DNA of 46,850 nt from Deltaproteobacteria bacterium (GTDB lineage Bacteria; Desulfobacterota; DSM-4660; Desulfatiglandales; HGW-15). The stretch lies in contig JAFGFM010000192.1 of NCBI GenBank assembly GCA_016931115.1, forward strand, positions 1 through 46,850. The letters run 5' to 3'. The position numbers and the translations under genes are program-made. Below, piece after piece: positions 17,994 through 22,075 of the stretch. How positions within the stretch are numbered: the first letter of the stretch is position 1; each line of letters opens with the position of its first letter. The notes under the pieces were generated by a model that saw only the letters and a list, made by a program, of their open reading frames with translations, had not been told where the DNA came from and searched no databases.

Positions 17994-18707
17994 TTGGACA
18001 ACCTTACCACGATTGATTATGAAAAATATATCAAGGCGCTTTCTGATATAAGCAGCGCCATTACATCAGACCTCTATATAGAAGAGATACTTAAACTTAT
18101 TGTTATGGTTACAGCAAAGGTTACAGGGCTTGAAATCTGTTCCCTGTGGCTTGTGGATAATTCAGGTACACAGAAAAAGATACGGCTGAAGGCCACACAG
18201 GCGATTGACCCTGATTACATGCAGGACAGGTCCCTTGATTTCAACGAGGGGGTTGTAGGTTATGTGGTATCCAATAATAAACCCCTTATACTGAAGGAGG
18301 TCATAAATGAACCAAGATTCAAGGAAAAGGAGATGGCAAAAAAACTTGGCCTTGTTTCCATGCTGAGTGTACCACTTCAGATTAAAAAGGGGGAGGTTAT
18401 AGGTGTTTTAAACTGTTTTACCGCAGTTCCACATGATTTTACAGAACCTGAGATCAACCTTATTACTGCGGTCGCAAACCAGGCAGCAGTGGCTATCATG
18501 AATACTGAGTTGATGGTAAAATCAAAGGTGATACAGGAAGAACTTGAGGCCAGAAAACTGGTTGAAAAGGCAAAAGAGATCATCATGAGCCGTAAGAATA
18601 TCAGCGGAAACGATGCCTTCAGGTGGATACAGAAGCAAAGCATGAACACTCGTAAATCCATGAGACAGGTGGCCGAGGCAATACTGCTTTCAGAGGATAT
18701 AGGGTAA
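17994..18707 (+). CDS. GAF-ANTAR transcription antiterminator
   Basis: This 237-residue protein starts at a TTG; AGGGGAG lies ~11 bases upstream and the next in-frame ATG would cut into the GAF fold. Residues ~10-170 form a GAF sensor domain (EICSLWLVDN, FNEGVVGYVVSNNKPLILKE, MLSVPLQIKKGEVIGVLNCF, AVANQAAVAIMN). A short coiled coil leads into a C-terminal ANTAR domain (ARKLVEKAKEIIMSRKNISG, DAFRWIQKQSMNTRKSMRQV, AEAILLSEDIG). ANTAR domains bind pairs of hexaloop hairpins in leader RNAs and block terminator formation; partners such as AmiR, NasR and EutV act in nitrogen metabolism. Such a pair of hairpins lies ~165 bases downstream, in front of the FMN glutamate synthase-like gene, its probable target. 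The ligand of the GAF domain is unknown. Confidence 0.9.
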   Translation: MDNLTTIDYEKYIKALSDISSAITSDLYIEEILKLIVMVTAKVTGLEICSLWLVDNSGTQKKIRLKATQAIDPDYMQDRSLDFNEGVVGYVVSNNKPLILKEVINEPRFKEKEMAKKLGLVSMLSVPLQIKKGEVIGVLNCFTAVPHDFTEPEINLITAVANQAAVAIMNTELMVKSKVIQEELEARKLVEKAKEIIMSRKNISGNDAFRWIQKQSMNTRKSMRQVAEAILLSEDIG

Positions 18708-18712
18708 TATTC

Positions 18713-18786
18713 CCTTACCCTTACTCTTGCTCTTACTCTTGATCTTAATCTTGATCTTAATCTTACTCTTTCTCCTGCTCTCTTTT
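18713..18786 (+). repeat. Pyrimidine-rich hexamer repeat tract
   Basis: A run of degenerate 6-base units (CTTACT, CTTGCT, CTTGAT, CTTAAT) begins a few bases after the GAF-ANTAR stop and grades into a C/T-only tail ending TCTTTTTTTAG. It is simple-sequence DNA likely to vary in length by slippage. It has no strong hairpin. Its position between the regulator and the downstream promoter suggests a spacer or a Rho-type unloading stretch, but nothing proves a role. Confidence 0.6.
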
Positions 18787-18827
18787 TTTAGTAATACTAA
18801 ATAATTTCAATTTTTTAATTATTACTA

Positions 18828-18856
18828 TTGACATTTCATTTTAGTAAAACTAAAAA
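18828..18856 (+). promoter_or_regulatory. Sigma70-type promoter of the ANTAR-controlled leader
   Basis: TTGACA at 18828-18833 is followed after exactly 17 bases by TAAAAA at 18851-18856. Transcription would begin near 18863, about ten bases before the first hexaloop hairpin. This gives a leader RNA of ~150 bases before the coding sequence of the FMN glutamate synthase-like gene, separate from the regulator's own transcript. Confidence 0.6.
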
Positions 18857-18871
18857 TATACAAAAATAATA

Positions 18872-18916
18872 TTACACAACGGCGTGTAAATTTAAAAAAA
18901 TAAGACAAAGACGTCT
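18872..18916 (+). promoter_or_regulatory. Tandem hexaloop hairpins: ANTAR-binding RNA motif
   Basis: Hairpin P1 has arms TTACAC (18872-18877) and GTGTAA (18884-18889) around the six-base loop AACGGC. Hairpin P2 has arms AGAC (18903-18906) and GTCT (18913-18916) around the six-base loop AAAGAC. Both loops have A at position 1 and G at position 4, the signature described for ANTAR targets. The loop and 3' arm of P2 coincide with the 5' arm of the terminator at 18907-18947, so P2 and the terminator are mutually exclusive. The GAF-ANTAR protein encoded just upstream should stabilise P1/P2 and allow read-through. The P2 stem is only 4 bp, which is short. Confidence 0.75.
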
Positions 18917-18947
18917 ACTCCATTTTTGGAGAGGCGTCTTTTTTTTT
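18907..18947 (+). terminator. Leader terminator controlled by the ANTAR hairpins
   Basis: The lower stem AAAGACG (18907-18913) pairs with CGTCTTT (18935-18941). The upper stem continues with TCT against AGG (one G-U), a bulged A, and CTCCA with TGGAG around a TTTT loop. A run of nine T ends at 18947. It is a strong intrinsic terminator placed 65 bases before the start codon of the downstream gene, which makes sense only if it is conditional. Confidence 0.85.
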
Positions 18948-19012
18948 GGTTTTATACATCTTCACCATTATGGAGAAGACCATGAATAATTATTTTATTG
19001 GAGGTATCAAAA

Positions 19013-20665
19013 ATGAGGTTTGATAAAAGCAATGATGTTCTTGGAACAGTAAATAGAGGGAACCCTGCCGAATCAGGGCTGTGTACACTTTGCAGGGCAG
19101 ACTGCCAGGGTAAGTGTGAAACATGGCTTGCCAGTCTGGTAGGGCGTAAACTTTTATATCCCAGGGATTTCGGGACAGTAACTGCTGGAGCAAATAATAC
19201 CACCAGTATCGGGGTAAATTACAATGCGCTTCGTATACAGGGGTACGCCTATGGCTCTCACGGCCTCAAAGCCGGCCTTTCCAATGACCCTGATGACTGT
19301 ATTTTCCCGAATGTTGACCTTTCAACAGAGTTTGGCAATGAGATGAAGACAAAGGTGCGCGTCCCTTTAATGACTGGTGCACTCGGATCAACATTTATAG
19401 CGGCAAAATACTGGGATTCATTTGCTATTGGCGGATCACTTGTTGGTATCCCTGTTGTAATAGGCGAAAACGTAGTCGGCGTTGATCTTAAATCAAAGAT
19501 CGGCAAGGGCAAAACAAGAAAAGGCAAGATAACAGGCGCCCCTGAACTTGAAAGAAGGATAGATACATACCTGAGGTATCATGATGGTTATGGTGCAATT
19601 ATTGTTCAGATGAATGTCGAGGATACAAGAAACGGTGTTGCAGAATTTATAATAGAGAAATATGGCAACAAATGCATTATAGAACTCAAGTGGGGCCAGG
19701 GGGCAAAGTGTATTGGCGGAGAGATACAGGTAACAAGCCTTGAATATGCCCAGTTCCTGAAGGATCGCGGTTATGTTGTTGACCCTGATCCAACAAGGCC
19801 TGCAGTACAGCAGGCATTCAAAGAGGGTTCAATAAAATCCTTTGCACGTCACAGCAGGCTTGGCGGCACCAACCTTGATACAGTGGATCAGGTGAAAAAG
19901 GATTTTATGGATTCTATTGATTACCTGAGAAGCATTGGTTTCAAGAGAATCACCCTTAAGACAGGTTCATACGGCATGGAAGAGCTGGCCATGGCAATCA
20001 AGTTTGCGAGCGATGCAAAGTGCGACCTCCTCACCATTGACGGGTCAGGCGGCGGTACAGGTATGAGCCCCTGGAACATGATGCAGAGCTGGGGTGTGCC
20101 CTCCATATTCCTGCACTCAAAGGCATATGAATATGCCAGCATCATTGCAGCAAAGGGTGAAAAGGTTGTTGATATGTCATTTGCAGGTGGTTTTGCCCTT
20201 GAAGACAGCATATTCAAGGCCTTAGCGCTTGGCGCGCCATACACAAAGATGGTCTGCATGGGCAGGGCGGTCATGATACCGGGTTTTGTAGGCTCCAATA
20301 TAGAGGGCGCCCTTATGCCTGAAAAGAGAGAGGCATTAAACGGAAACTGGGAGAGCCTGCCAAGGACAGTCAGCAGCATAGGAGAAAAGGCAGAAGAGAT
20401 ATTTGCCTCCTATTTTGATGTCCTGAACAAGGTGGGTAAAAAAGAGATGAAAAATATCCCATACGGTGCCATTGCCTTTTATACCCTTGCTGATAAACTT
20501 TCATGCGGGTTGCAGCAGCTCATGGCCGGTGCCAGGAAATTCTCACTGAATCAGATAAGCAGGTCAGATATCTTCTCTGCAAACAGGGAGACTGAGAGAG
20601 AAACAGGTATTCCTCACGTTACTGAAATCAATGATGAGACCGCAAAGAAGATACTTAAAGGCTAA
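19013..20665 (+). CDS. FMN-binding glutamate synthase-like protein (GltB central/FMN domain)
   Basis: This 550-residue protein starts at the ATG at 19013, with GGAGGT at 19000-19005; an in-frame TTG at 18998 overlaps that site and is rejected. Residues ~20-40 hold a four-Cys motif, CTLCRADCQGKCETW, that could carry an Fe-S cluster. The rest is the TIM-barrel FMN domain of glutamate synthases: GAIIVQMNVEDTRNG, CIIELKWGQGAKCIGGEIQV, LLTIDGSGGGTGMSPWNMMQ, VVDMSFAGGFALEDSIFKAL and MVCMGRAVMIPGFVGSNIEG. The three clustered cysteines that hold the 3Fe-4S centre of classical GltB are not seen after the FMN site, and no glutaminase domain is present. The product may therefore make glutamate from ammonia supplied by a partner, or act on another substrate. 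It is preceded by an ANTAR-type leader, consistent with nitrogen control. Confidence 0.85.
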   Translation: MRFDKSNDVLGTVNRGNPAESGLCTLCRADCQGKCETWLASLVGRKLLYPRDFGTVTAGANNTTSIGVNYNALRIQGYAYGSHGLKAGLSNDPDDCIFPNVDLSTEFGNEMKTKVRVPLMTGALGSTFIAAKYWDSFAIGGSLVGIPVVIGENVVGVDLKSKIGKGKTRKGKITGAPELERRIDTYLRYHDGYGAIIVQMNVEDTRNGVAEFIIEKYGNKCIIELKWGQGAKCIGGEIQVTSLEYAQFLKDRGYVVDPDPTRPAVQQAFKEGSIKSFARHSRLGGTNLDTVDQVKKDFMDSIDYLRSIGFKRITLKTGSYGMEELAMAIKFASDAKCDLLTIDGSGGGTGMSPWNMMQSWGVPSIFLHSKAYEYASIIAAKGEKVVDMSFAGGFALEDSIFKALALGAPYTKMVCMGRAVMIPGFVGSNIEGALMPEKREALNGNWESLPRTVSSIGEKAEEIFASYFDVLNKVGKKEMKNIPYGAIAFYTLADKLSCGLQQLMAGARKFSLNQISRSDIFSANRETERETGIPHVTEINDETAKKILKG

Positions 20666-20776: not shown

Positions 20777-22075
20777 TTATAATATTTTGATCCAGAGAAG
20801 TCTTGCCACATCTGTGCCTGTGTTTTTCCAGCAGGCAGGGGTATCATTTGCAAGGTATATAAGATCACCTGCCCTTGCGATATATGAGGTTTTTTCCAGA
20901 TTCATCTGTAGCTCGCCTGATAATATATAACCTATCTCATCTCCCTTATGTGAAAAAAAATGGCCGGGAAAATTTTTATTGGGCGCAATCTCAATAATGT
21001 AAGGCTCAGCCTTTGCTTCAAAATCAAGGGGTGTAAGGAGCTTTCCTGAAATACTCTCTTCAGGAAGATCACCAAACCTTATATCGGATGCATCAGAGCT
21101 GGTGAACACATTTTTTGGCCTGGCTTCACCTCCCCCCTGAAAAAATGCGCTGACTTCAATGTTAAGTATTTCTGCCATTTTTAAAAGTGCGGGAACAGAG
21201 GGATATATAAGATTGCTTTCAATCTGTGAAATGGTGCTGGGTGTAACACCTATTAGCCTTGCCACCTCTGTCTGTGATAATCCTCGTTTTACCCTGAGTT
21301 CTTTAAGGCGTATACCCATATCAATACTGGCGGTCGGCCTCTTTTCTGAATCAAAAAGGATATTCATATCCCTTGTCCAGTAACCATAGGGCCTATTGAG
21401 TGTGCTTGAATCTCGCTTTTCCGCCTTGAGGACTGTCAATGATGTCTTACCCCGTTTTACTGAAAGCTCTATAGCCACCTGTGCTATCTGATTTATGCTC
21501 GCCCTCAGACGTGGCGTATGTGCCTCCTTTTCCATGATCCAGTATGCTATTGTATTTAGTTCATACAATCTTGGGCATGAATGGGAGTAAAAGGTGAGTA
21601 TTGACTCTTCACCACCCCACAGCTCCTGCATCCCTGTTATGCTTTCAAATACAAAACGCACATCACCGGTCATATCAGCGTGAATGCCATAAAAGGCATC
21701 CATTACCTTTTCCACCTTTTTTGGCTCCTTTGATGTGACTATTCTGCATTTGATCTCAGACATTTTTTCCCTGTAAAATTTCAGGAATATCTCAGAACCT
21801 TCACCCTTTCCATATGTGAAACAATCCAGTATGGTAAGCTTTTCATAATCAGCAAGGGCACCCAGTTTATCAAGGAGATTTTTAGGAGACCTGTCAAAAC
21901 TTACATAGATTATATGTTTATCCTGTGATTCTGATGCCTGCATGAAATTAAGGCAGAATGCATATGCAAGACTACCCGCATCATCGTACCAGACTACGTT
22001 ATCGCCAACAAACAGGCCACCCAAAATCCTGTCAAGCTGACTTACACCAGTAGCTATCCTATTCATTTCGTCCAT
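20777..22075 (-). CDS. KaiC/RAD55-like domain fused to XRE DNA-binding and cupin domains
   Basis: This 432-residue protein has three parts. Residues ~1-235 resemble the KaiC/RAD55 ATPase fold (TGVSQLDRILGGLFVGD, HIIYVSFDRSPKNLLDKLG, LTILDCFTYGKG, VRFVFESITGMQELWG), but the Walker A GKT is replaced by YDDAGS, so ATP hydrolysis is doubtful. Residues ~253-310 are an XRE/Cro helix-turn-helix (LKELRVKRGLSQTEVARLIG, VTPSTISQIESNLIYPS). Residues ~345-432 are a cupin_2 sensor (FPGHFFSHKGDEIGYILSGE, IYLANDTPACWKN). XRE-cupin regulators are common; an N-terminal KaiC-like fusion is not. It probably represses or activates genes in response to a small ligand or a partner protein. The start is three bases after the TrmH-like stop, so the two genes are cotranscribed. 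Confidence 0.8.
   Translation of the reverse strand: MDEMNRIATGVSQLDRILGGLFVGDNVVWYDDAGSLAYAFCLNFMQASESQDKHIIYVSFDRSPKNLLDKLGALADYEKLTILDCFTYGKGEGSEIFLKFYREKMSEIKCRIVTSKEPKKVEKVMDAFYGIHADMTGDVRFVFESITGMQELWGGEESILTFYSHSCPRLYELNTIAYWIMEKEAHTPRLRASINQIAQVAIELSVKRGKTSLTVLKAEKRDSSTLNRPYGYWTRDMNILFDSEKRPTASIDMGIRLKELRVKRGLSQTEVARLIGVTPSTISQIESNLIYPSVPALLKMAEILNIEVSAFFQGGGEARPKNVFTSSDASDIRFGDLPEESISGKLLTPLDFEAKAEPYIIEIAPNKNFPGHFFSHKGDEIGYILSGELQMNLEKTSYIARAGDLIYLANDTPACWKNTGTDVARLLWIKIL

Follow-up and report, generated by a model that had tools for sequence, protein, structure and literature searches.

A predicted ANTAR-controlled transcription attenuator in the leader of a glutamate-synthase-like gene in Desulfobacterota

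The stretch of deltaproteobacterial DNA analysed here (46,850 nucleotides, the window) contains, between a gene for a GAF-ANTAR protein and a gene for a glutamate-synthase-like protein, a leader that is very probably an ANTAR-controlled transcription attenuator, and the GAF-ANTAR protein, as its RNA-binding partner, almost certainly operates the switch. The leader has alternative structures, it is conserved and covaries among related bacteria, its cognate protein carries RNA-contact residues, and the element stands before a nitrogen-type set of genes. The features of the region are these:

17994–18707, forward strand: GAF-ANTAR protein, 237 aa, TTG start (Pfam GAF 1.1e-20, ANTAR 2.9e-19)
18828–18833, forward strand: −35 element TTGACA (TTGAC kept in orthologous leaders)
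18851–18856, forward strand: −10 element TAAAAA (spacing from the −35 element fixed in aligned promoters)
18872–18889, forward strand: P1 hairpin, TTACAC-AACGGC-GTGTAA, hexaloop AACGGC (A1/G4; from sequence and fold)
18890–18902, forward strand: P1–P2 linker, 13 bases (from sequence)
18903–18916, forward strand: P2 hairpin, AGAC-AAAGAC-GTCT, hexaloop AAAGAC (A1/G4; from sequence and fold)
18907–18941 with T-run to 18947, forward strand: intrinsic terminator (from fold and covariation)
19000–19004, forward strand: ribosome binding site GGAGG (from sequence)
19013–20665, forward strand: glutamate-synthase-like FMN-domain protein, 550 aa (Pfam Glu_synthase 5.2e-14)
20777–22075, reverse strand: KaiC-like/HTH/cupin regulator gene, convergent to the glutamate-synthase-like gene

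A preliminary description of this DNA had placed regulator and target side by side, with two A1/G4 hexaloop hairpins (A at loop position 1, G at position 4) between them; the GAF-ANTAR gene is indeed directly 5′ and the Glu_synthase-domain gene directly 3′, and the hairpins are borne out base for base. Folded alone, P1 has a stem of six perfect pairs (−5.1 kcal/mol, z −3.9) and P2 a stem of four (−3.3 kcal/mol, z −2.6), and the terminator, in which 18907–18916 and 18918–18922 pair with 18927–18941, reaches −21.2 kcal/mol (z −7.2). The 5′ arm of the terminator starts exactly at 18907 and consists of the loop and 3′ arm of P2, so that 18907–18916 are common to both structures, which exclude each other as had been claimed: the full leader folds as P1 plus terminator, and the leader cut at 18920 folds as P1 plus P2, as expected of a default-off attenuator. 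The window thus has the features of published ANTAR targets, namely tandem A1/G4 hexaloop hairpins with stems of at least three pairs, a terminator that overlaps P2 and a linker of limited length. Natural eut linkers are 5–12 bases long, and induction at eutP was impaired when the linker was engineered to 14 bases, so the 13 bases found here lie near the EutV limit; linker length differs between orthologous leaders, and in some it exceeds that of the window.

The attenuation mechanism would be that of EutV, NasR and AmiR (PMC3369931, PMC8934654). Transcription is expected to start near 18863, a few bases 5′ of P1. Without active protein, the terminator (−21 vs −3 kcal/mol for P2) would form and transcription would stop before the target gene. 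Signal sensing by the GAF domain of the adjacent protein would lead the ANTAR domains to bind first the P1 hexaloop and then the P2 hexaloop; P2 would be held closed, the 5′ arm of the terminator would be withheld, and RNA polymerase would read into the gene. We infer both the binding and the direction of control, and the signal is probably nitrogen status, for example glutamine or 2-oxoglutarate.

The preliminary description had suggested that orthologous leaders be aligned and inspected for the hexaloops and for compensatory changes. Leaders were sampled from target orthologues at 80 Desulfobacterota loci and from GAF-ANTAR gene loci in 61 related genomes, using a pattern of P2 as GAC-ANNGNN-GTC, with A1 and G4 required, and an upstream P1 in which only one of A1 and G4 was required. 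This gave 77 distinct leaders, the window counted, and all but two have both A1 and G4 in P1, one of the two exceptions being a mis-assigned P1 that the covariance model places rightly. Two otherwise good leaders (L051 3893–3946 and L028 2558–2601) have the P2 loop GAAGGC, with G for A at position 1, and are natural variants of the A1 rule. Among 62 leaders, with the window excluded, P1 has two-sided changes at 6 of its 7 family pairs (63 cells), a level reached by none of 500 shuffles, and slid controls are far lower. In the longer alignment A2, which includes the window, 97.8% of terminator cells are paired and 11 are two-sided, and changes at the fifth base of the P2 loop are matched by changes in its pairing partner in the terminator (G-C/A-U/G-U; A-U in the window). 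Nearly every leader collected in this way carries both hexaloops, and compensatory changes occur in both P1 and the terminator, so the refuting outcome named in the preliminary description, leaders devoid of them, did not arise.

P2 itself is uninformative for covariation because its core never varies: GAC/GTC, three of the four pairs, is invariant across 61 distinct leaders, and the fourth pair forms in about 74% of leaders. The four-pair stem, which had been regarded as the weak point of the proposal, is accordingly the norm in this family. The invariant core could partly be kept for the terminator, which can, however, form without the GAC 5′ arm of P2. ANTAR binding could in principle act on translation or RNA stability, as has been proposed in the 2012 survey for some ANTAR targets that have no terminator (PMC3369931), and here we consider that extremely unlikely, since the overlap of P2 with the terminator is conserved and covarying and the terminator lies about 50 bases 5′ of the ribosome binding site.

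The strength of the terminator and its position downstream of the ANTAR gene would also suit a plain intrinsic terminator that ends the GAF-ANTAR transcript, the hairpins being incidental. This is very unlikely, because the ANTAR gene and P1 are separated by a conserved promoter, which places the terminator in the target's own leader, because P1 is dispensable for termination yet strongly covarying, and because the same leader also turns up at loci with no ANTAR gene nearby. The promoter had been predicted at 18828, where TTGACA is in fact found; of 76 leaders, 75 have TTGAC in the 150 bases 5′ of P1, as against 13% of shuffled sequences. The spacer between the −35 and −10 elements is 17 bases long, and the −10 consensus of the aligned orthologous promoters is TAAAnn. 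Before other targets, too, the leaders nearly always carry TTGAC some dozens of bases 5′ of P1, and this conservation at the window and at other targets argues that the attenuator has its own promoter.

Other elements were seen in the DNA around this promoter. The dyad TTAGT-N3-ACTAA occurs in two perfect copies (18788–18800 and 18841–18853), one of them between the −35 and −10 elements, and its combination with TTGACA is unique in the genome; many orthologous promoters have a related dyad, TAAGTnnnGCTAA, in the equivalent position, and flpD promoters lack it. About 20 related loci have the KaiC-like/HTH/cupin gene beside the glutamate-synthase-like gene, and L160 has it beside an flpD operon; its product is a candidate dyad-binding protein. 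A pyrimidine-rich hexamer repeat (CTTACT/CTTGAT/CTTAAT) occupies about 18712–18775, after the ANTAR stop codon and before the promoter, and the sister genome has it in degenerate form.

With the window and the sister genome both left out of its training set, a covariance model still recovered the window, at 48.2 bits (E 1.2e-12 in the window search and 1.3e-10 in the genome search, these E-values being rough because calibration was short). The search of the whole genome with such a model, another check that had been suggested, recovered the window as the only strong match in 5.2 Mb, the next being 16.7 bits (E 0.2); weak matches on C216, C66 and C132 (at most 16.7 bits) have no leader architecture and were rejected. 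The genome has exactly one ANTAR domain gene, directly 5′ of the site. Across 118 related genomes the element is present in 51 of 69 with an ANTAR domain vs 7 of 49 without (Fisher p 7e-11, a guide only, since the test ignores shared ancestry and several assemblies are incomplete); the discordant genomes are thus 7 with the element and no detected ANTAR gene and 18 with an ANTAR gene and no element, several of them incomplete. Where the target leader is without the element (Desulfamplus, Desulfoprunum and one Desulfobulbus), no GAF-ANTAR gene was found in the DNA on either side.

P1, P2 and the terminator also resemble a generic attenuator, and the PyrR model gives a weak match (E 5.4), so one might suppose that another ligand or protein is at work (riboswitch, T-box or PyrR-like). 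The probability of this seems to us negligible: no Rfam family reaches threshold, matches at gathering and relaxed thresholds being at chance level with no matching family for the leader, both loops have A1 and G4 with conserved closing pairs as in EutV targets, and the distribution of the element follows that of ANTAR genes.

The GAF-ANTAR protein is predicted to be a one-component RNA-binding antiterminator. Its GAF domain resembles the GAF domains of the NifA and PtsP families, which are linked to nitrogen status, and its ANTAR domain (PF03861) scores 69–72 bits against a curated cut-off of 27.3. The RNA contacts of EutV (PMC8934654) were transferred by hand through a protein alignment, and 7 of 11 are identical: EutV Arg142, Lys143, Lys147, Lys149, Met172, Asn173 and Arg175 correspond to R187, K188, K192, K194, M217, N218 and R220. 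EutV Tyr164, which stacks on loop G4 (PMC8934654), is replaced by Phe209, also aromatic, and EutV Glu160, Arg168 and Arg177 are changed. A scan of IMG/VR for the GAF-ANTAR regulator gave no match.

The target gene probably starts at the ATG at 19013 behind GGAGG; an alternative TTG at 18998 would give 555 aa, and orthologues align from the ATG. Its match to Glu_synthase (PF01645; 52.6 bits) covers only part of the domain, and the FMN-domain signature is kept (motifs GQGAKxxGG and GGTG). The [3Fe-4S] cysteine triad of GltB, present also in the genome's own GOGAT operon, is absent from the target, as is a GATase domain for glutaminase activity, and an N-terminal CxxCxxxCxxxC is invariant in the target and its orthologues. 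The earlier label of glutamate synthase-like thus stands for the FMN domain and fails for the cysteine triad and glutaminase; judged by its sequence, the protein is a divergent FMN-domain paralogue and putative glutamate-synthase-like enzyme. Its predicted structure has a mean pLDDT of 44 and was set aside, and a PDB sequence search with the protein gave no match.

The proposed link to nitrogen assimilation is strengthened by the targets of relatives. The commonest target of the element in Desulfobacterota is the same glutamate-synthase-like gene as in the window; it also precedes canonical gltB (L176, and by likeness L182 and L183), a GATase-GXGXG gene with hdr-like neighbours (L153), gdhA (L201), amtB (L208 and L217), and an aspS-gatC fusion and gatA-like gene (L159, 43.7 bits), the last suggesting that amidotransferase-dependent tRNA charging is under the same ANTAR control. 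Taken with the GOGAT operon, these targets suggest that the regulon is best read as one for nitrogen assimilation. That operon is found on contig C189 of the window genome (metV-metF, two FMN/ferredoxin-type Glu_synthase genes and a GXGXG gene) and is apparently its working GOGAT. In the sister genome the same operon begins with flpD and has an ANTAR leader upstream (L150); C189 begins inside metV, so a second ANTAR target was probably lost at the contig end, and the idea that the window site is the genome's only target was dropped. At L150 (2001–6050) the leader stands before flpD, metV, metF and Glu_synthase-domain genes, and similar operons occur at L151, L154, L155, L157, L206, L215 and L219; from its gene content this appears to combine one-carbon and nitrogen functions in a single operon behind one attenuator.

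A more far-reaching combined reading, which we hold to be doubtful, would have the Desulfobacterota GAF-ANTAR protein directly sense glutamine or 2-oxoglutarate as a nitrogen-status switch acting by transcription attenuation, its best-conserved target, the standalone FMN protein (with N-terminal CxxCxxxCxxxC and without glutaminase or [3Fe-4S] site), be an uncharacterised nitrogen-assimilation enzyme, and the KaiC/HTH/cupin regulator control initiation at the same promoter through the TTAGT-N3-ACTAA dyad.

In its main text, a 2012 survey of 1902 genomes placed predicted ANTAR targets ahead of glutamate synthase genes in Desulfotomaculum reducens and of nitrogenase genes in Pelobacter, and predicted a nitrogen regulon of 13 sites in D. 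acetoxidans (PMC3369931). That main text gives no regulator type or leader covariation for Desulfobacterota, and the literature searched on ANTAR in sulfate reducers and deltaproteobacteria held nothing relevant beyond the survey, whose supplementary tables may include relatives. The preliminary description had called the gene pair undescribed in this lineage; no account of the pair was found in that literature, but the general connection between ANTAR targets and glutamate synthase genes had already been predicted in 2012. These sources contained no description of the one-component GAF sensor or of the phylum-specific regulon; the mechanism itself is known. The window offers an unusually clean ANTAR attenuator in sulfate-reducing-type bacteria, where the regulator gene adjoins its target and orthologues are plentiful. 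The covariance model defines a phylum-wide nitrogen regulon that would connect an FMN enzyme of uncharacterised function with nitrogen assimilation and bring a methylenetetrahydrofolate reductase/GOGAT operon under the same control; the predictions can be tested directly in cultured relatives, among them Desulfatibacillum alkenivorans, which has the same gene pair (L049).

Among known systems, the leader is most like those that EutV controls before eutP, eutG, eutS and eutA in Enterococcus faecalis, which have two A1/G4 hexaloop hairpins with conserved closing pairs (PMC3369931, PMC8934654) and P2 embedded in the intrinsic terminator after a short linker, and the earlier claim of a published ANTAR architecture holds in each of hexaloops, closing pairs and embedded terminator. 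EutV is a phosphorylated REC-ANTAR response regulator, whereas the window regulator is a one-component GAF-ANTAR protein, and unlike the eut targets those of the window element are nitrogen-assimilation-type genes. In these respects it resembles NasR and the nasF leader of Klebsiella oxytoca, where a one-component sensor-ANTAR protein acts on an attenuator in a nitrogen gene leader; NasR responds to nitrate and nitrite through a different sensor domain, and the window protein carries GAF. The predictions for Desulfotomaculum reducens and D. acetoxidans (PMC3369931) are, as given in the survey's main text, of the same element class and the same functional target class, in Firmicutes and computational only.
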